A DNA stretch of 64,000 nt, taken from Fimbriimonadaceae bacterium. Its GTDB lineage: Bacteria; Armatimonadota; UBA10988. Shown here one piece after another: positions 28,802 through 43,427 of this stretch (positions within the stretch are counted from its first letter, which is position 1; the number at the start of each line of letters is the position of its first letter). Under the pieces are notes generated by a model. It was not told the DNA's origin. It saw nothing but the letters and a program-made list of their open reading frames with translations, and did not search any database. The stretch lies in contig JADZEX010000004.1 of NCBI GenBank assembly GCA_020850355.1, positions 1 through 64,000 of the forward strand, in the 5' to 3' direction. Made by a program: the position numbers and the translations under genes.

Positions 28802-30034
28802 TCAGCCGGCCAACCAGCCCCGCAGGTCGGCAGCGTAGACCCGCCTGGTGCCGTCCGGGCAGCCGTTGAACAGCAGCCACTCCCAGTCTGGATCCCAGGC
28901 CGGGTGCGGGTCCACCCGCAACTCGCGCCGCGGGCCGACGTAGGGCGGCACGCTCGGCATCCGGACCAGGGTCGTCTCGGCGCCATCCGACAGCCGCAGC
29001 CCGCGGATCGGCACGCTGCCGTCGGCGAAGCTGAGCGGCTCGTGGGGGTAGGCGTCGGTCACCAGATGGCGGCCGTCGCGGTGCAGCGTCGGGTGGCCCG
29101 ATCCGAGCTGACGCGGCGCCAGGACCTCGCGCCCGCGGCCGTCGTAGGCGACGCGGATCAAGCGCAGCGCCCCGTCCAGCTTGAGGTTCATCAGCAGATG
29201 CTGCGAGTCGGGGCACCAGTTCGGGTGGTGTCCACCACGCACCCAGTCCGCGGCGGGCACCGCCACTCGCGCGTCGCCGCCGGCAGCGTCGACGGTCACC
29301 AGCGCCGGCCGCATCCGGCTGCCGTCGTGGGGCAGGTAGCGCAGCACCAGCAGCACGCGCTGGCCGTCGGGCGCTGGTTTCACGTGAAACAGGTAGTAGT
29401 CGCCGGCGCCAGGGTGGTCGACCGCCGCCCCGAGCTGGGCCACCAGGTCGGCCAGGCTGACCACCAGGCGGGTCGCCCCGCTGGCCAGGTCGGTGACCCA
29501 CAGGCCATCGTCGGCCGGCGCGCCGTGGTTGACCGGCGTGGCCTCCGGCGGGACGATCACGCCGTACCCGGCCTGCGTCGCGCCGGTCCGCCGGAGGCAC
29601 GGGCTGTAGGCCAGCCGGCCGTCGGCGGTCGCCATGTAGACCGTGCCGTCCAGCCGCTGGGTCGCGCCGCCGAGCGGGTCGAGGGCCACGCCAAAGGGCT
29701 CGCAGGTGGCTGGATCGAGGTCGTTGTAGAGCAACCGGCCGCCGGCCCACTGGACCTGCGCGCCGAGCTGGGTGTCGGCACCGCGGGTGGTCGCCACGAC
29801 GCGGCTGCCGCCGTCGCGCAGATCGACCAGCACCACCTCGGCCAGGTCCCCCGGCTGGGGCAGGCGATCCTCGGCGGTCAGCCGACAGACCGCCAGCCAG
29901 CGCCCGCAGGGACTGACCGGCGAGGTGTCGTAGAAGCGGTGGAAGCAGCCGTCACGGTCCGGCGTGAGGCAGGTCACCGGGACGGCCGGATCGAACAGTC
30001 GATAGCGTGGGAACGAGGCCGCCAGGTCGGTCAT
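28802..30034 (-). CDS. Beta-propeller protein (oligogalacturonate-lyase/TolB-like)
   Basis: 410 residues, no clear signal peptide. Repeated blades with a Pro-Asp-Gly/Ser turn and Trp (DTSPVSPCGRWLAVCRL, GYGVIVPP, HPNWCPDSQHLLMNLKLDG, DPHPAWDPDWEWLLFNGC) resemble the seven-bladed propeller of PL22 oligogalacturonate lyase and TolB. It is the third gene of an operon with a deacetylase and a LacD-like protein. A parS-like palindrome lies inside its coding sequence (29376-29391, translated LFHVK). Enzyme activity is not proven. Confidence 0.7.
   Translation of the reverse strand: MTDLAASFPRYRLFDPAVPVTCLTPDRDGCFHRFYDTSPVSPCGRWLAVCRLTAEDRLPQPGDLAEVVLVDLRDGGSRVVATTRGADTQLGAQVQWAGGRLLYNDLDPATCEPFGVALDPLGGATQRLDGTVYMATADGRLAYSPCLRRTGATQAGYGVIVPPEATPVNHGAPADDGLWVTDLASGATRLVVSLADLVAQLGAAVDHPGAGDYYLFHVKPAPDGQRVLLVLRYLPHDGSRMRPALVTVDAAGGDARVAVPAADWVRGGHHPNWCPDSQHLLMNLKLDGALRLIRVAYDGRGREVLAPRQLGSGHPTLHRDGRHLVTDAYPHEPLSFADGSVPIRGLRLSDGAETTLVRMPSVPPYVGPRRELRVDPHPAWDPDWEWLLFNGCPDGTRRVYAADLRGWLAG
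29376..29391. other. parS: parS-like ParB-binding site inside a gene, one mismatch
   Basis: GGTTTCACGTGAAACA differs from the parS consensus TGTTTCACGTGAAACA only at the first base; the 14-base core GTTTCACGTGAAAC is perfect. It is inside the beta-propeller gene. parS sites occur inside genes in many bacteria and cluster near oriC. Confidence 0.8.
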
Positions 30035-32851: not shown

Positions 32852-35800
32852 CTAGTGGTTGCCGCCGGCCGCCACCTGAGGCCGCCCGGTCTCCCGCAGC
32901 AGCACCCGAAAGCCGACATTGTAGACGCCCTGCCAGGGCTGGTAAGCCAGCCGGAAGCTGGCCGTCGCACGCTGCGGCCGGTCGCGCCAGGAGCCGCCCC
33001 GCACCACCCGCTGACCCGCCGCGGCGAGGTCTTCACGGCCGTCGGCCGGGTCGTAGGGATAGGGCCGGTCCAACGAGCGGGTCCACTCGGCGACGTTGCC
33101 GGCGGTGTCCTGAAGCCCCCAGGGGTTCGGCCGGTACTGCCCCACGGCGGCCGACACCAGCGCGCCGTCGTTGACCTGGGCGTCCTTCGGCAGCCAGTCG
33201 TCGTACTCGCCGGGATTGCGCAGTGGGGTGTCCGGCGTGTAGGGGTCGCTGGCCAGCTCACGGGTCTTGGCGTCGGCCAGGTTGGCGTAGGGCGCAAAGT
33301 CGCCCGCCGCGGCGCCCCACCAGAATGGTGTCGCGCTGCCGGCTCGCGCGGCGTACTCCCACTCGGCCTCGCTGGGCAGCTCGGCGACCTCGCCGCTGCG
33401 CTGGCCGAGCCAGCGACAGAAGTCGACGGCGCGCTGCCAGGCGACGCGGACCACCGGCTGGGTGGGCTGGAAGAGCGGGTAGCCCAGCACGCCGAACTGG
33501 TAGCCTTGCTTGGATTCCCGCCGGCTGTCGTGGCGCGGGTCGAACTGCGCGTACTGCTGATTGGTGACTTCGGTGCGGCCCAGCCAGAAGCCGCGCGGCT
33601 GTCGCACGATGGTCGCCGGCCGCTCGTCGGCCGGTCCCGCCGCCGACCCGACCAGGCCCTCACCGGCCGGGATCCAGACCAGCTCCAGCGTCACCCCACC
33701 GCCGAGGTCCAGCGTCCGGGTCGGCCGGGGTGCGCCGGCCGCGGTCACCTGCAGGGCCGGCAGGGCGGCCGGTGGCGGATCGCTGACGCTGGCCTGCGGG
33801 GCGGCCGGGCTGCCGCTCAGCGGCGGTGGCCCCAGGTGCAGCTCGTCGACGCCGGCGTAGGTCTTACGCTGCTCGGCGCGGCGCAGTTCGCAAGACCGCG
33901 CGCTGTCGCCCGCGATGGTTGCCCAGTCGCCGTGGAACGGGGTGTTGAGGTCGATCCAGGCGATCAACTTGTCCCACTCCTCGCGTTCGAGGGTCACGCC
34001 CTGGTGGCCCTTGCGGAGGGTCTGCACCAGCTCCGTGGTGCTGGCGTGGTAGTCGAGCGGCGCCAGCGTGTGCATGTCGCTCTCGATGCCGGGGTGCCGT
34101 ACGTAGCGGTGCAGGTTGATGTAGCTGCGGCTGAACCGCCCGCCCCACTCGCCGGCGTGACCAGGCATGATCGACTTCCAGTCGCGCACCGGCTCGTCAC
34201 CCCGCAGCGTGAAGAGCGCCTGGCCCTGGTGCGTCGTGCTGCCGTTGTGGCAGGGCACGCAGCGGCGGTCGAGGATCGGCTGCACCTCGTTGGCATAGGC
34301 GAATCCGCGGGCCTGGCCGTACCAGGTGGTCAGATCGGTCGGCGCCTGCCGCGCCGCCAACGTGCGGCGCGCGCCCGGAGCGTCGTTCTGCGACTCGTGA
34401 CAGCCGACGCAGGAGATGGTCTCGCCGGGCATCGCTGTGAACCAGCTCCGCATCTGCTGCAAGGCCTGCCCCTGTGCGTCGAGCGGTTGCACTGCCAACG
34501 GCACGTTGGCCGGCACGCGGAAGAAGGCCGAGCCGTCGGACTCGACCGGCACCGTGCCCAGCACCCGGCGCACGTCCCACGGGCCGTCGAGGCCGATGGT
34601 GCCGTAGAGGCCGCCCATGCCGCGGTAGCCGTAGGTGTAGCTGAGCACCCGCAGCGACTTGACGGTGCCGCGCGGCACGCCGGCCAGGCCGGGTCCGGCG
34701 TAGATGTCGGCCAGGAAGACCAGACCGTCCTTGCGCTGCAGGTTGACCTTGTCAGGGATCACCGGCGCCGGCCGCGTGGCCTGCAGCGGCTGCGGCTCCA
34801 GCAGCGCGTAGCCCGGCTCCTCACGCAGCAGCAGCAGGTTGTCGAAGACGTCGACCAGGTAGATCCCCCACGGCTGGCCCGGCGCCGGCTGCATCGCGGT
34901 CAGGAAGAACTTGCCACTGCCGCGGCCGTCGGACCGGCCGAGCGGCCAGGGGTGCAGGAACTTCGGCCAACTGCTGTCGACCAGTTGGTCGGCCACCACC
35001 GGCTCCACCGGCTGCCCCCAACCCGGGATCCGTTGCACCACACCACTGGCTTCCTGGCGGCCTTTGGCGAAGTCGAAGAGCACCAGCTCACCCATCCGGG
35101 CGACGCCGTGGTGGCCGGTCACGATGCCCACCACCTGGGTCGGCCGACCGGGCACCGGGCGGGCGAAGAAGACGCCGTTGGGCCAGTACGAACTGGACCC
35201 GTAGACGGCCATCTGCTGCGTGCCGTCGGGGTTCATGCTGAACAGGATGCGGCTGTTGGAGTGCGGCAGATCGGCGTACTCCCAGCGCAGGTAGAGGATC
35301 TTCCCGTCGTTCATGACGGTCGGACACCAGTTGTGCTCCTGGTCGAAGCAGAGCTGCCGCGAGCTGCCGTCGGCGCCGAGCCGGAAGAGGTTGGCGACCG
35401 CGGTCGAGCCGTTGACGCACGGCACCGCGACCATTGGGGCGGTTGAGCTGTAGAGGATCTCGCCGTTCGGCAGGTAGCAGGCGTCGTAGTTGTTGATGTC
35501 GGCGCCGAGATCGGGCGTGACCTGCCGCGGCGGCCCGGCCTGGCCGGCGCGTAGCGGCAGCTCATAGACCTGCCAGGGCTGCTGCGGGTGAGACTGCGAG
35601 AGCAGCAGCCGCTGGCCCGACGGGTGCAACTCGACGTCGCCGACGAAGGCGTCCCCGGCCGGCCGGTAGACCGTCCGCAGCGGCGCGGCCAGGTGGCGCA
35701 GGTCGAGCGTCGCCAGGTCGTTGCCGTAGCCACTGCGCGGCAGCACGCAGTTGCTCTGCCAGTTGGCCGGCAGACCCAGCCGGTCGGCCCGCCGGCGGAC

Positions 35801-36820
35801 CAGCAGCAGTTGGTCGCAGTCGAGCAGCGGATTGGCCAACAGCACGGCCCGCTGCAGTTCCACCAGCGCCCGGGCGCGTTCCCAGCCGGCGCGGTCGCCG
35901 CTGGTCAGCAAGGTCTGCAGCCGCGGCAGCTCGGCACTGGCCGCGGCGATCGCGGCCCGCTGGCCGGCAGCCTGCGGGTAGGCCGCGGGGAAGCTGACCA
36001 CCAGATCGTCCAGCGCACGCAGCAGCGCCGCCGGGTTGAGCAGCACGACGCTGCGGCTGACCGGGGCCCAGAGCGCGCTGGCCGCCAGCGCCGCGCGGTG
36101 CAGCTCGACCCAGGCCGGTTGGTCCAGCCGGGTCCGGGCGAGGTGGAGCTGGCTGGCCGTCGCGCGCAGGCCTGGCGCCTCGGGGCCGGCTGTCGCGGCG
36201 AGTTGTTCGATCACCTGCGTGCCGGCGGTCAGGTCGGCCGCCCAGTCGGCCTCGGCCGGAGGCAGTTGGAGGTGCCGTTGCGACCACTGGCTGACGCTCG
36301 ACTGCAGCGCCGGCTGCCGCAGCGCGACGTTGCGGTCGGGGTCGGCGGCGGCGTAGACTTCAACCTCGCTGAGGTGCAGCCAGATCTGCGCCGGGACGCG
36401 CACCCGCAGGTAGCGGCCGCTGGGGTGGTTCAGCTCCACCTCGATCCGCGGCGTGTCGGCCGTCTTGGCGGTCTGGCACCAGGCGCTGTTCCAGCTCACC
36501 TGATCGTCCGACAGCAGCAGCTCGAACCCGCTCAGGCGCTCCGGGATGTGGTTGGCGTAGAGCACCACCCGCACGAGGCTCTGGCGGCTGCCGAGATCGA
36601 CCTGCCACCACGGCCCGGTGTCCTGATTGGTGTGGTGCCCGAAGCCCTGCGTGCGGTTGCCGTCGACCACGCCGGCGGCGTCTTCGGCCGGGCGCACTCC
36701 GCCGGGCGCGCTGGCCCGCAGGGCGACGACCGCCGTCTGCCAGGCCGCCTGCTCCGCCGGCGTGACGGCCCCCGCCGCGCTGACACCCAGCCAGATCACG
36801 ATCCAACCAAGGTCTCGCAT
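32852..36820 (-). CDS. Discoidin-HzsA-like propeller-dihaem-SUMF1 fusion protein
   Basis: 1322 residues with a signal peptide (LGWIVIWLGVSAAGAV). In order: an F5/8-type-C module (about 35-160), a helical spacer (170-350), and a beta-propeller/HZS-alpha-like region (360-770) with YDACYLPNGEILYSST, HNWCPTVMNDGKILYLRWEY, YWPNGVFFARP, GHHGVARMGELVLFD and VPRGTVKSLRV. Two c-type haem sites follow (CVGCH at about 803, CVPCH at about 853). A Pro-rich linker leads to a formylglycine-enzyme/SUMF1-like domain (about 1040-1310; GFWLGRTEVTNQQYAQF, LPSEAEWEYAARAG, NPWGLQDTAGNVAEW, RGGSWRD). HzsA-type proteins of this architecture are known from Planctomycetes. Hydrazine synthesis is not implied. GGGAGG precedes the ATG. 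Confidence 0.85.
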   Translation of the reverse strand: MRDLGWIVIWLGVSAAGAVTPAEQAAWQTAVVALRASAPGGVRPAEDAAGVVDGNRTQGFGHHTNQDTGPWWQVDLGSRQSLVRVVLYANHIPERLSGFELLLSDDQVSWNSAWCQTAKTADTPRIEVELNHPSGRYLRVRVPAQIWLHLSEVEVYAAADPDRNVALRQPALQSSVSQWSQRHLQLPPAEADWAADLTAGTQVIEQLAATAGPEAPGLRATASQLHLARTRLDQPAWVELHRAALAASALWAPVSRSVVLLNPAALLRALDDLVVSFPAAYPQAAGQRAAIAAASAELPRLQTLLTSGDRAGWERARALVELQRAVLLANPLLDCDQLLLVRRRADRLGLPANWQSNCVLPRSGYGNDLATLDLRHLAAPLRTVYRPAGDAFVGDVELHPSGQRLLLSQSHPQQPWQVYELPLRAGQAGPPRQVTPDLGADINNYDACYLPNGEILYSSTAPMVAVPCVNGSTAVANLFRLGADGSSRQLCFDQEHNWCPTVMNDGKILYLRWEYADLPHSNSRILFSMNPDGTQQMAVYGSSSYWPNGVFFARPVPGRPTQVVGIVTGHHGVARMGELVLFDFAKGRQEASGVVQRIPGWGQPVEPVVADQLVDSSWPKFLHPWPLGRSDGRGSGKFFLTAMQPAPGQPWGIYLVDVFDNLLLLREEPGYALLEPQPLQATRPAPVIPDKVNLQRKDGLVFLADIYAGPGLAGVPRGTVKSLRVLSYTYGYRGMGGLYGTIGLDGPWDVRRVLGTVPVESDGSAFFRVPANVPLAVQPLDAQGQALQQMRSWFTAMPGETISCVGCHESQNDAPGARRTLAARQAPTDLTTWYGQARGFAYANEVQPILDRRCVPCHNGSTTHQGQALFTLRGDEPVRDWKSIMPGHAGEWGGRFSRSYINLHRYVRHPGIESDMHTLAPLDYHASTTELVQTLRKGHQGVTLEREEWDKLIAWIDLNTPFHGDWATIAGDSARSCELRRAEQRKTYAGVDELHLGPPPLSGSPAAPQASVSDPPPAALPALQVTAAGAPRPTRTLDLGGGVTLELVWIPAGEGLVGSAAGPADERPATIVRQPRGFWLGRTEVTNQQYAQFDPRHDSRRESKQGYQFGVLGYPLFQPTQPVVRVAWQRAVDFCRWLGQRSGEVAELPSEAEWEYAARAGSATPFWWGAAAGDFAPYANLADAKTRELASDPYTPDTPLRNPGEYDDWLPKDAQVNDGALVSAAVGQYRPNPWGLQDTAGNVAEWTRSLDRPYPYDPADGREDLAAAGQRVVRGGSWRDRPQRATASFRLAYQPWQGVYNVGFRVLLRETGRPQVAAGGNH

Positions 36821-36850
36821 CGCCACCTCCCGCCACGGGCTGGCGGCTGC

Positions 36851-38705: not shown

Positions 38706-40094
38706 ATGCCCATTTCATCTCAGACGATCTGCCAGTGGCTGGACGCCGCCAAGCTGAGCTACGCGGTCAGCCCCGACCAGAGCTACCTGATGCTGCCCTT
38801 CGCCGGGGTCACCGAAATGGTCCGGGTGATCGAGGAGGGTGAGGCGGTGGTCTTCCAGATCACCAACCTCCACAGCCTGACCACCGGCCCGCGCCGGGCG
38901 GCCTGCATGGAGTTCATGCTCGACCACAACTACCGCACCAAGATCGGCACTTTCTCGGTCGACAACAGCGACAACGAGGTGCGGCTGGAGGCCTTCCTGG
39001 CGGTCGAGGATACGACCTGCACGGCCAAGATGATCGAGCGCTACATCCGGGTCCTGGCCAGCGAGGCCCGCACGGCGGTAGCCCAACTCCGCGGTGTCGA
39101 GGCGGGCCAGAGCATCGCCGAAGTGGTCGGCGGCGAGCCCGGCAGCACGCCCCCCACGGAGTTCGAGGTCGGCGGTCTGCCGGCGGCGCCGGTCGAGGAG
39201 CAGGTCTGGCTGGAGCAGGTCCACGCCGCCTTCAGCGCGCAGTGCGCCAATGTCGAACTGACCGACCGCGTCGAGACGATGCGCGACACGGTCTGGCCGG
39301 CACTGCAGACCTTGCGCAGCGCCTCGGTGCAGGCCGGGCGCGAATACCTCACCCCGACCCTGGCGGCCGACCTCGGCCTGACCGCCGCCGAAGAGTACGT
39401 CGTGCTGTTCATGCTGGCGCGCCAGGCCAACGGCGACCGCAAGATCAACTTCAACGAACTCGACCGCGTCTACAGCCGCGGCGCGCAGTCCGGCGAGGGC
39501 GCGGCGGTGGCCAGCCGGCTGACCAGCCTCGAGGTGCTTGAGGCGGTCGACCATGACGACACCGAGCCGTTCCGGCTGACCCGCCGCTACCTGGACCCGC
39601 TGACCGCCCGGCTGCCGTTCACCCACCGGCCCTGGAAGGCCTTGCTGCGCGAAGCCGACCTGCCCGCGGAGGCGGTCTCCGAAGTGGCCTGGCTGGCGGC
39701 GGTGCGGCAGGTGGTCGAGATCGACCTCGCCGATCCGGGCGATCTGGCGGTGGTCGCGATGGTCCATGAGGAGGTCTGGCCAGCGCTGCAGCGGCTGCGC
39801 AAGAAGTCGCTGGTGGCGGGTCAGGCATTCCAGACTGCGCAACGCGTCGCCGAACTGGAGCTGAGCGCCGCCGAGGAGCTGCTGGTCGCCTACATCGGCG
39901 CCCGCGCGGTGACCGAGGACAGCCGGGTCTGGCTGCGCAGCATCGACGAGGTCCACTCCCCCGGTCTCGACAAGTCGGCGGCCGAGGCGGTGATCACCCG
40001 CCTGCTGGCCCTCAACGTACTGCGTTGCTGTGACGACGACGGCCAGGAACCGTACACCCTCGGCTCGGCCGGCGCTGCCTGGCGGCCGAGCTGA
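38706..40094 (+). CDS. YbjN-like domain plus two copies of a helical module
   Basis: 462 residues, no signal peptide. Residues 1-130 have the YbjN/secretion-chaperone-like pattern (LMLPFAGVTEMVRVIEEGEA, then CMEFMLDHNYRTKIGTFSVD, LEAFLAVEDTTCTAKMIERY). Then come two related modules of about 140 residues, 170-310 and 320-460: the first has VWPALQTLRSASVQAGREYL and AAEEYVVLFMLAR, the second VWPALQRLRKKSLVAGQAFQ and AAEELLVAYIGAR. Each ends in a charged DDDxxEP turn. The modules look like winged-helix or helical repeats. The function is unknown. The stop at 40094 is followed by a parS site and a strong hairpin. Confidence 0.7.
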   Translation: MPISSQTICQWLDAAKLSYAVSPDQSYLMLPFAGVTEMVRVIEEGEAVVFQITNLHSLTTGPRRAACMEFMLDHNYRTKIGTFSVDNSDNEVRLEAFLAVEDTTCTAKMIERYIRVLASEARTAVAQLRGVEAGQSIAEVVGGEPGSTPPTEFEVGGLPAAPVEEQVWLEQVHAAFSAQCANVELTDRVETMRDTVWPALQTLRSASVQAGREYLTPTLAADLGLTAAEEYVVLFMLARQANGDRKINFNELDRVYSRGAQSGEGAAVASRLTSLEVLEAVDHDDTEPFRLTRRYLDPLTARLPFTHRPWKALLREADLPAEAVSEVAWLAAVRQVVEIDLADPGDLAVVAMVHEEVWPALQRLRKKSLVAGQAFQTAQRVAELELSAAEELLVAYIGARAVTEDSRVWLRSIDEVHSPGLDKSAAEAVITRLLALNVLRCCDDDGQEPYTLGSAGAAWRPS

Positions 40095-40111: not shown

Positions 40112-40127
40112 TGTTTCACGTGAAACA
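40112..40127. other. parS: parS, ParB-binding site
   Basis: TGTTTCACGTGAAACA matches the parS consensus exactly. It is intergenic, 17 bases after the YbjN-like gene and just before a terminator hairpin. Together with the near-perfect copy at 29376, it suggests this segment is close to the replication origin. Confidence 0.92.
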
Positions 40128-40159
40128 CGGGCCCGTGGTGCGCTGCACCACGGGCCCGT
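40127..40159. terminator. Bidirectional stem-loop between convergent genes
   Basis: Perfect 15-base arms (acgggcccgtggtgc and complement) with a gct loop. It separates the YbjN-like gene (+, ends 40094) from the tricorn-like gene (-, ends 40185). No T-tract on either side. Confidence 0.75.
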
Positions 40160-40184: not shown

Positions 40185-43100
40185 TCAGCCTTTGGCCGCC
40201 GCCGCAAGCTGGTCCAGCACCGCTTTCACGGCGGCCTCGATCTGCCGGTCGCGGCCGGCTTCCTCATCGCCCGGGGTCGGCTCGACGACGATGTCAGGCA
40301 CGCAGGGGTTGTTCTCCTGGTTGACGTGGTCGGTCACGCGGTACCAGCCGCGGCCAGGCAGGCGCAGCGAGCTGCCATCCAGGAGGGTCGTGCCGCCGGT
40401 GCTGATCACGCCGCCGTAGGTCCGCGTGCCGACCACCGGGCCGCGCTTCAGGACCTGGAAGGCGTGGGAGAGGATCTCGGCGTTGCTGACCGACTGCCCG
40501 TTGCAGAGCAGCGCCAGCGACTTGCTCCAGATCGGCGCCAGCAAGCGGCTGGTGGGGTAGCCTTTGCCGCCGTCGCGGGGGATGGTGTAGGCGTGCGGCC
40601 GGGCCATCACTTGCGCCAGCAAGAGGTCGGCGGTCCAGCCGCCGCCGTTGAAGCGGACGTCGATCAGCAGCCCCTCGCGGCCGTTGCCCGCCGCGAAAAG
40701 GTCCTGCTCGAACTTTTTCAGGCTGGGCTCATCCATCGCCGGGAGCCAGGTGTACCCGAGCTTGCCGCCACTCAGCTTGACGGTCAGCGCGCGCATCCGG
40801 CGGATCCAGTCCTCCTCGCGCAGGCGGTCGATCTCGCCGACGCCGACCGGCCGCAGGCTGACGCTGCGCTCCTTGCCGTCCTTGTCGGCCACCAGCAGCG
40901 TGGTCGGCTTGCCGCCGGTCCCCAGGAGCAGCTCGCTGACATCCTGGCCGGCCCGGACCGCCGCGTCGTTGATCCGCAGCACCCGCTCACCAACCTCGAT
41001 CTTGCTGGACGCCTTGCTGGCCGGCGAAAAGGGCACCACCGCGGCGACCTTCAGGCCGCTGCCGCTGCGGTCGTTGTCCCACTCGACACCCAGCTCGCCG
41101 GCCTGCACGCCACCGCTGGCGGGGCGCGGCGAGCTGAAGCCCTGGTGGCTGGCGTTGAGCTCGCCCAGCAGGTCGTTGACCACGCCGTCGAAGTCGGCGC
41201 GGGTCGGCGCGGCGGCCGCCCGGGCGCGGTGCTTGTCGCCAACCTTGACCCAGTCGGCGCCATGCATCTGGGGGTCGTAGAACTGGTCTCCCATGATGTG
41301 CCAGACCGCGTCGTAGAGGTAAGCCCACTCGGCGGCGACGCTGCGGCGCACCGTCGCCTCGAAGTTGGCGGCGCTGACCGGGCCGCCCAGCGGCATGATC
41401 CCGCCCAGCTTGCCGTCGCCGCGGGCGAAGCGGATCTGGCGGCCGTCGGGGCTCCAGGTCGGGGCGCCGGCGCCAAGGCCTTGCGTCAACTGCCGCGGCG
41501 GACCGTCCCAGTTCTGGGCAAACAGCTCCCGCCGCCCGCCGCCGTCGCCGCAGTAGGCGAACTGCTTGCCGTCTGGCGATGCGATCAGCCAGCTCTCGTT
41601 GCCGATCGTCGAGGTCAGCCGGACCAGCCGCTCGCTCAGCCCGTCCCACTCGATCTCGACCTTCTTCGGCTCCGCCGGGGCTGTGCCGGGACCGCCGGGG
41701 CCACCCGGCCCGCCGGGCGCGCCAGCCGGCGGGCCAGCCGGTTTGGCCTCGGCCGGCTTGCCGTCCTTCGGGGCCTCGGCTGGCTTCGGCTTCGGCTTGT
41801 CGAAGTTGTCGTCGTCTTCGTCGTCGCGGTCGGCGCGGGTCTTCTCCCAGTCGGCCCGCCGCAACCAGACGAAGTAGGCGTCGACCTGCTCGTTCTCACG
41901 GTCGCTCAGGAACCCGAGCTTGCTGCCGTCGCCGCTCCAGCAGGGCGAGTAGTCGCTGCGCGGGTGCTGGCTGACGTTGACCGGCTCGCCGCCGGCGGCC
42001 GGGATGATGAACACATCGGCGTTGTAGTCGTCGTCGCTGCGAGCGAAGGCGATCCAGCGGCTGTCCGGCGACCAGGCCACGTCGGGCGATGACCAGTGCC
42101 GGAACAGCACCTTCTCGTTCTTGAGGTCGGGATCGGCCACCACCAGGTCGCCCTTGCCGCGGATGAAGCTGACCTTCTTGCCGTCCGGCGAGTACTGCAG
42201 ACCGAACTCGTTCGGTGCGCTGGTGGTGCGCCGCGTCGTCTCCAGCTTGGCGCTCCGCCGCAGGCGGGGCTCGTTGGGATCGGCGCTGGTGATGCTGAAG
42301 AGCTCGTTCTGCCGGTACTGGTCGCTGCTGTACCAGAGGGTCTTGCTGTCGGGGCTCCAGGCCAGGCTGCCCTCTTCCCACGGCGTGTCCGTGAGCTGCG
42401 TCGTCGGGCCGCCGTCGGGGTAGCGGGTGACGTACAGGTCGCCGCGAATCACGTAGGCGACTTCCTTGCCGGACGGCGCCACGGCGTACTCGCCAAAGCC
42501 GCTGGTGATGCTGCGGTAGATCTCGGTCGGGTCGGCGCGGTCGACCGGGACGGTGACCGGCACGACCGCCGACTTGCCGGTCGCCGGGTCGAGCAGCCAG
42601 ATCTGGTCCTGCTGCTCAAAGGCAATGCTCCCGGTGCGCCGCGCGCTGCTGGGGTTGCGAACCGGTTCGTCGAAGCTGGTGACCGCCGTCGCCTCCCCGC
42701 CGGCCAGGGCGGTCTTCCAGAGGTTGCGCACCCCGCCGCGGTCGCTGACGAAGTAGACGGTCTGGCCATCGACCGACCAGAGCGGCTGCGTGTCGACCGC
42801 CTGGTGCGTGGTGAGCGGCTTGTAGACGCCGGTCTTGAAGTCGTGGACCCAGACGTCCTCGGACGAACCACCGCTGTACTGCCGCCGATTCGAGGACGAG
42901 ATGCCGCGCACGAAGAGCATCTTGGTGCCGTCGGGCGACCACTGCCCCTGGCTGCCCTCGCCCCGTTGCACCAGCTTCGGGGTGCCGCCGGTTACCGGCA
43001 CGCTGCACTCCAGGCGGTGTGGCCCGACCCCTGGCCCGTAGCGCCGCGAAGCGAACAGCAGCTCCTGGCCGTCAGGGGTGAAGTCGCTGCAACCGTCGGC

Positions 43101-43427
43101 GCCGGGATGGTAGGTGACCCGCCGCAGTTCGCTGCCGTCGATCTTGAGCAGCCAGACATCGGCGTTGCCGCTGCGGGTCGAGCCGAACGCCAGCCATTGC
43201 CCGTCGGGCGAGAAGACTGGGTTGACGTCCTCGGCCGGGTGGTCGGTCAGACGCTCCGCCCGGCCGCCCTTGCTGGGCACGATCCAAATGTCGGCCTTGT
43301 ACGAAAAGGCCAGTTGCGAGCCATCGGGGGAGAGGGCCGGGTCGTGCACGAAGCGGGCCAGCCCCTGCGCCGCCAGCGGCGTCGCCAGGAGCATTCCCGC
43401 CAGCAGCGCGGCGGACAGACGAGGCAT
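40185..43427 (-). CDS. Secreted tricorn-protease homologue
   Basis: 1080 residues with a signal peptide (LSAALLAGMLLATPLAA). The first 600 residues form two beta-propellers with repeated SPDG turns (FSPDGQWLAFGS, WSPDGTKMLFVR, WSPDSRWIAFARS). An acidic/Pro-rich linker follows (DDEDDDNFDKPKPKPAE, then GGPGGPGGPG). Then come a second propeller edge, a helical cap, a PDZ-like domain (about 790-860), and the S41-type peptidase core with the nucleophile S981 in GQSVSNAEI. Tricorn trims peptides released by other proteases; secreted bacterial versions are common. GGAGA precedes the ATG. Confidence 0.9.
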   Translation of the reverse strand: MPRLSAALLAGMLLATPLAAQGLARFVHDPALSPDGSQLAFSYKADIWIVPSKGGRAERLTDHPAEDVNPVFSPDGQWLAFGSTRSGNADVWLLKIDGSELRRVTYHPGADGCSDFTPDGQELLFASRRYGPGVGPHRLECSVPVTGGTPKLVQRGEGSQGQWSPDGTKMLFVRGISSSNRRQYSGGSSEDVWVHDFKTGVYKPLTTHQAVDTQPLWSVDGQTVYFVSDRGGVRNLWKTALAGGEATAVTSFDEPVRNPSSARRTGSIAFEQQDQIWLLDPATGKSAVVPVTVPVDRADPTEIYRSITSGFGEYAVAPSGKEVAYVIRGDLYVTRYPDGGPTTQLTDTPWEEGSLAWSPDSKTLWYSSDQYRQNELFSITSADPNEPRLRRSAKLETTRRTTSAPNEFGLQYSPDGKKVSFIRGKGDLVVADPDLKNEKVLFRHWSSPDVAWSPDSRWIAFARSDDDYNADVFIIPAAGGEPVNVSQHPRSDYSPCWSGDGSKLGFLSDRENEQVDAYFVWLRRADWEKTRADRDDEDDDNFDKPKPKPAEAPKDGKPAEAKPAGPPAGAPGGPGGPGGPGTAPAEPKKVEIEWDGLSERLVRLTSTIGNESWLIASPDGKQFAYCGDGGGRRELFAQNWDGPPRQLTQGLGAGAPTWSPDGRQIRFARGDGKLGGIMPLGGPVSAANFEATVRRSVAAEWAYLYDAVWHIMGDQFYDPQMHGADWVKVGDKHRARAAAAPTRADFDGVVNDLLGELNASHQGFSSPRPASGGVQAGELGVEWDNDRSGSGLKVAAVVPFSPASKASSKIEVGERVLRINDAAVRAGQDVSELLLGTGGKPTTLLVADKDGKERSVSLRPVGVGEIDRLREEDWIRRMRALTVKLSGGKLGYTWLPAMDEPSLKKFEQDLFAAGNGREGLLIDVRFNGGGWTADLLLAQVMARPHAYTIPRDGGKGYPTSRLLAPIWSKSLALLCNGQSVSNAEILSHAFQVLKRGPVVGTRTYGGVISTGGTTLLDGSSLRLPGRGWYRVTDHVNQENNPCVPDIVVEPTPGDEEAGRDRQIEAAVKAVLDQLAAAAKG

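Follow-up and report, generated by a model that had tools for sequence, protein, structure and literature searches.

ParB is loaded on the chromosome at parS as a CTP-dependent clamp, slides along the DNA and recruits ParA and SMC. Noc, a ParB paralogue that blocks division over the nucleoid, has sites of its own that differ from parS and are spread evenly over the chromosome. Chromosomal parS sets usually comprise fewer than five sites, with a common range of one to twenty-odd. The five strongest sites of Caulobacter lie within 5 kb and parS is disfavoured outside a permissive zone (PMC5815017), while Bacillus subtilis favours a parS cluster over 60 kb, distant extra parS causing SMC collisions (PMC8357415). 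Sets of 20–23 sites have been termed high, and why the number of parS sites varies and what drives their clustering are listed as an open question (PMC7333895). Myxococcus xanthus has 22 sites (PMC3899335). In Streptomyces, a matrix scan gave a mean of 22.8 and a range of 11–65, the highest value coming from one Streptomyces (PMC8743542). A search of open papers found none reporting more than 65 parS sites.

The genome analysed here (assembly G000; 6.67 Mb in 117 contigs, 95% complete) shares with the B. subtilis Spo0J and C. crescentus ParB systems an identical 16-bp consensus, a canonical parAB operon, the oriC position and SMC, but it carries some 110 perfect sites that extend over hundreds of kilobases, apart from outliers. 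The high copy number, the oriC-centred and intergenic distribution and the high GC content are reminiscent of Streptomyces; however, a Streptomyces genome counted in the same way has 25 exact cores, compared with 147 in 1.16 Mb here, where the sites form tight clusters of two to six. M. xanthus also combines many near-origin sites with a large genome, although its sites number 22 only. Noc, too, is a ParB-fold protein with tens of dispersed sites, whereas the present set consists of plain parS and no ParB paralogue was found in the genome. The notable result of this study is the number of parS sites, a hyper-expansion, together with its recurrence in separate lineages.

The window sites and the genome-wide parS set

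The window, i.e. the whole stretch of DNA analysed, comprises the first 64 kb of the 67,082-bp contig C5. Its perfect palindromic parS, TGTTTCACGTGAAACA, occupies positions 40112–40127 (no strand assigned) in a 90-bp gap between two converging genes. One of these codes for a YbjN-domain (YbjN-like) protein (38706–40094, plus strand) and its stop lies 17 bp short of the site; the other codes for a Tricorn-like protease with beta-propeller, PDZ and peptidase S41 domains (40185–43427, minus strand). The sequence-only reading had described an intergenic 16-mer identical to the ParB/Spo0J consensus and very unlikely to have arisen by chance. The match is indeed exact, the position is intergenic and, with 0 copies expected from 100 dinucleotide shuffles, chance is excluded. 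The near-perfect second copy that had been noted about 11 kb away is present at 29376–29391 (no strand assigned), where GGTTTCACGTGAAACA has one outer-base mismatch and an intact 14-bp core. Its location inside a predicted gene had gone unmentioned; this gene (28802–30034, minus strand) codes for a protein of about 410 aa without a Pfam match. Both window sites are real parS sites.

In the whole genome, 168 sites were counted at up to two mismatches, against none for a reversed-pattern control. The perfect 16-mer is present in 112 copies, 79 with a preceding C and 33 with another preceding base, which fall on at least 14 contigs. Two sites have possibly been counted twice, as contigs C46 and C59 share their final ~135 bp. 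Both ends fall in one and the same parS array, whose period is 25 bp; the assembly broke within a parS cluster, and the true number may differ slightly. The 1.16 Mb of sequence examined in detail contains 110 of the 112 perfect sites. In this sequence, no palindromic 14-mer is commoner than the parS core, which has 147 copies against eight for the runner-up; 300 palindromes assembled from permuted half-sites are absent altogether. The parS call at 40112–40127 is right and, by itself, ordinary.

Gene calls were made with a purpose-written codon-model gene finder, according to which 93% of the sequence is coding. Among 154 cores with at most one mismatch, 139 are intergenic, although intergenic DNA accounts for 7% of the sequence. 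On the four dense contigs, a site is present in 18 of the 29 gaps between convergent genes and in 30 of the 173 other gaps, tandem or divergent (Fisher P = 1.7e-6). The sites are grouped into 73 clusters (27 single, 20 double, 20 triple and six larger), with a spacing between neighbours that is most often 50–60 bp (~55 bp). Helical phasing of the spacings was considered and is not claimed: the 10.5-bp signal is weak (P about 0.003) and nearby periods are almost as strong because the spacings peak at 50–60 bp.

Most of the in-gene sites are on sparse contigs. For those near predicted starts, the true start may be located downstream, which would place the site upstream of the gene. Mid-gene sites on C5, C41, C46, C64 and C96 use codons that are rare in this genome: TTT (10%) and AAA (10%) or, in the other frame, GTT (6%), CGT (9%) and ACA (3%), each relative to one commoner synonym. 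The window site at 29376–29391, for example, is translated as F-H-V-K through TTT and AAA. Such use of rare codons in mid-gene copies suggests that selection acts on the DNA and not on the peptide.

Partition genes and position relative to oriC

The genome contains only one ParB-family match, on C96. The protein is canonical over its whole length, with ParB_N, HTH_ParB and ParB_C domains and a GERRWRAA motif, and its best match among solved structures is Spo0J (1vz0). Its amino terminus (LGKGLAALL) is that of an ordinary, ParA-binding ParB and gives no indication of an additional membrane helix. The gene lies directly downstream of parA, coding for a ParA-type ATPase, and three parS sites are located upstream of parA. 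A full-length SMC is encoded on C19 (SMC_prok_B match, 902 bits). The assignment of the window site to a chromosomal partition system, for which the sequence-only reading had regarded a parB gene as indispensable, is in agreement with this single canonical parB adjoining parA.

Contig C96 opens with rpmH-rnpA-yidD-yidC-jag and C46 with dnaA-dnaN-recF; parA, parB and dnaA are supported by tools, and the other names were read from translated or raw sequence. From the conserved gene order at their openings, we infer that both contigs begin at oriC. The start of C46 and the end of C52 share ~126 bp, as do the starts of C96 and C12. The shared sequence is a repeat, perhaps an insertion element; one copy lies within or next to the rpmH-dnaA gap at oriC, interrupting the assembly at the origin, and another between C12 and C52.

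C46 and C96 add up to 270 kb (4.05% of the genome) but account for 102 of the 168 sites (61%), including 65 of the 112 perfect ones. The set as a whole is thus clustered near dnaA, parA and parB. Two further contigs, C22 (24 sites) and C59 (eight sites), are dense as well, their nearness to oriC being an assumption made from site density. On the remaining contigs, sites are sparse.

The same cannot be said of the window segment, which the sequence-only reading had considered origin-proximal on the strength of its perfect site. dnaA and parB are located on C46 and C96, respectively, and neither is on the window contig; no overlap was found between the ends of C5 and 18 other contig ends; and GC skew, proposed as a means of locating the origin, is flat and gives no placement of C5. 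Perfect copies are scattered over many contigs, a pattern that this reading had itself named as contrary to its proposal. The two sites in the 67 kb of C5 compare with 0.37 expected from the sparse remainder (Poisson P = 0.05), or 0.69 when C22 and C59 are counted as remainder (Poisson P = 0.15). Sparse contigs carry sites too, and the two of C5 do not exceed the prediction from the sparse remainder; nearness to the origin thus cannot be read from a perfect parS in this genome.

Expanded sets in other genomes and their possible role

Our broad survey covers two phyla, and the map of the present genome rests on a fragmented draft. In the phylum comparison, which included 291 genomes with this one and allowed up to two mismatches, 289 of the 290 relatives have 0–20 sites, mostly 0–5, and genomes of the same family have 1–2. 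Two genomes are outliers, the present one with 168 sites and G098 with 89; the next highest count is 20. G098, a member of another family, resembles this genome in its high count and in its arrays with ~58-bp spacing, but differs in the outer base (C...G; consensus CGTTTCACGTGAAACG) and in the possession of a second ParB-family gene. The arrays of G098 contain 5–10 sites, have spacers partly common to different arrays and are in many cases located at contig ends.

We also counted the exact 14-mer in 397 genomes sampled from the Actinomycetota, the phylum of Streptomyces. Most have 0–5 cores and genomes of 7–10 Mb have up to 33, whereas three genomes of only 3.4–4.0 Mb, G453, G582 and G657, have 114, 110 and 135 exact cores, respectively. 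G657 is the type strain of the gut bacterium Eggerthella lenta, represented by a single contig of 3,632,260 bp (PMC3035228). In this chromosome, 64 of the 135 sites are found in 372 kb (10%) around the chromosome start, and 57 of these 64 are intergenic; in G453, a 400-kb region around parB contains 49 of the 114 sites, and 44 of the 49 are intergenic. The three genomes probably form one lineage, as ParB of both G453 and G582 closely resembles its E. lenta counterpart. As in the present genome, their sites are origin-peaked, mostly intergenic and preferentially located in convergent gaps. However, this group belongs to a different phylum, its outer consensus is AT...AT (extended consensus ATGTTTCACGTGAAACAT) and not CT...AG, and its sites are mostly single, about half of them lying away from the origin. 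No paper on a parS expansion of the E. lenta type was found in the open-paper search. Twenty named genomes from several phyla have 0–3 cores each, with the exception of Streptomyces (25). Four further Actinomycetota (G318, G627, G568 and G654) have 7–10 cores packed in 3–9 kb, a compact arrangement at the other extreme from the broad zones.

We consider it likely that the massively expanded parS set serves the single ParABS system of this genome, forming a very broad, regional ParB centromere, also used for SMC loading, with scattered satellites that include the window sites. CTP-bound ParB would load at each parS as a sliding clamp, and dozens of close-set clusters on both sides of oriC would create a broad and redundant regional centromere and SMC-loading zone. 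The usual few-kilobase centromere would in this way be widened to at least about 270 kb and probably 500 kb. Farther out, isolated sites, the two of the window among them, would contribute sparse ParB loading along the arms, and the gaps between convergent genes may be the places where clamps least disturb promoters. ParB occupancy, SMC loading, a shared role in segregation and maintenance of the expansion by selection are all predictions of this scheme. A tolerated spread of parS is surprising in the light of the SMC collisions reported in B. subtilis and the permissive zone reported in Caulobacter. As widely spread parS appear to be counter-productive in these two species (PMC8357415, PMC5815017), many of the sites, and the satellites in particular, may see little use, be neutral or have some other function.

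Three other explanations deserve attention. It is unlikely that the window adjoins oriC and that its site is one of a handful of ordinary origin-proximal centromere sites. The site is perfect and the parS set of this genome is indeed concentrated at oriC, but the 112 perfect copies, distributed over at least 14 contigs, the sparse-tail density of C5 and the presence of dnaA and parAB on other contigs, to which no overlap of contig ends ties C5, all argue against such a location. Quite improbable, too, is a double duty of ParB, acting at the oriC centromere and, through the arm sites, in a Noc-like manner or as a nucleoid-wide scaffold. The existence of one ParB-family protein, and hence of no separate Noc, would be compatible with this proposal, as would the perfect single sites found deep in contigs without origin genes, some of them in genes with rare codons, and the approximately half of E. 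lenta sites outside the origin-centred 10% of the chromosome. Against it stand the strong oriC peak of site density in both this genome and E. lenta, where Noc sites would be evenly spread, and the ordinary, ParA-binding amino terminus of ParB, devoid of any sign of an extra membrane helix.

We regard as very improbable the explanation that the palindrome is a dispersed mobile or REP-like repeat, or the operator of another regulator that resembles parS by coincidence. Local duplication does occur in a minority of cases (tandem duplication is apparent in 11 of 77 adjacent pairs), and in G098 arrays at different places share a ~58-bp unit. However, beyond CTGTTTCACGTGAAACAG, with its CTG...CAG edge, the flanks of different clusters have nothing in common and their profile is flat. 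With no shared flanks and few duplicate pairs, the spread of the set is not attributable to a larger repeat, and a mobile or REP-type repeat is rejected for this genome on the flank comparison. Furthermore, the sites favour convergent gaps and not promoters, flank parA, peak at oriC and have as their core the textbook ParB site, all of which argues against this explanation.

If the regional centromere and SMC-loading zone is accepted as the preferred reading, hyper-parS chromosomes may, more tentatively, represent a distinct and convergently evolved organisation, with ParB loaded over hundreds of kilobases around oriC and at outposts on the arms, forming a regional centromere with possibly Noc-like, nucleoid-wide duties. 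Were this the case, the limits derived from collisions and permissive zones in model species would have to be relaxed. The ~90 to 170 sites present in three separate sampled lineages, one of which includes the cultured E. lenta, provide natural experiments on the sharing of ParB among many loaders, on the limits of SMC loading and on whether a bacterial centromere can be regional.

The hairpin beside the perfect site

A hairpin with 15-bp arms (40127–40141 and 40145–40159) and a 3-nt loop directly follows the perfect window site, at 40127–40159 (no strand assigned), one base being common to both. The fold is strong (z = -5.8) and has no run of T. The abutting stem reported by the sequence-only reading is thus real, but its association with parS is not general: a stem lies within 3 bp of only 2 of 154 parS sites, and stems are just as common in convergent gaps without parS as in those with it. 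On these counts, we reject the hairpin and parS as a functional unit; the hairpin is probably an ordinary terminator common to both convergent genes. Elsewhere in the window (32852–36826, minus strand), a 1,324-aa protein combines an F5/8-type galactose-binding domain, a middle domain of the hydrazine-synthase-alpha type and an FGE-sulfatase domain.
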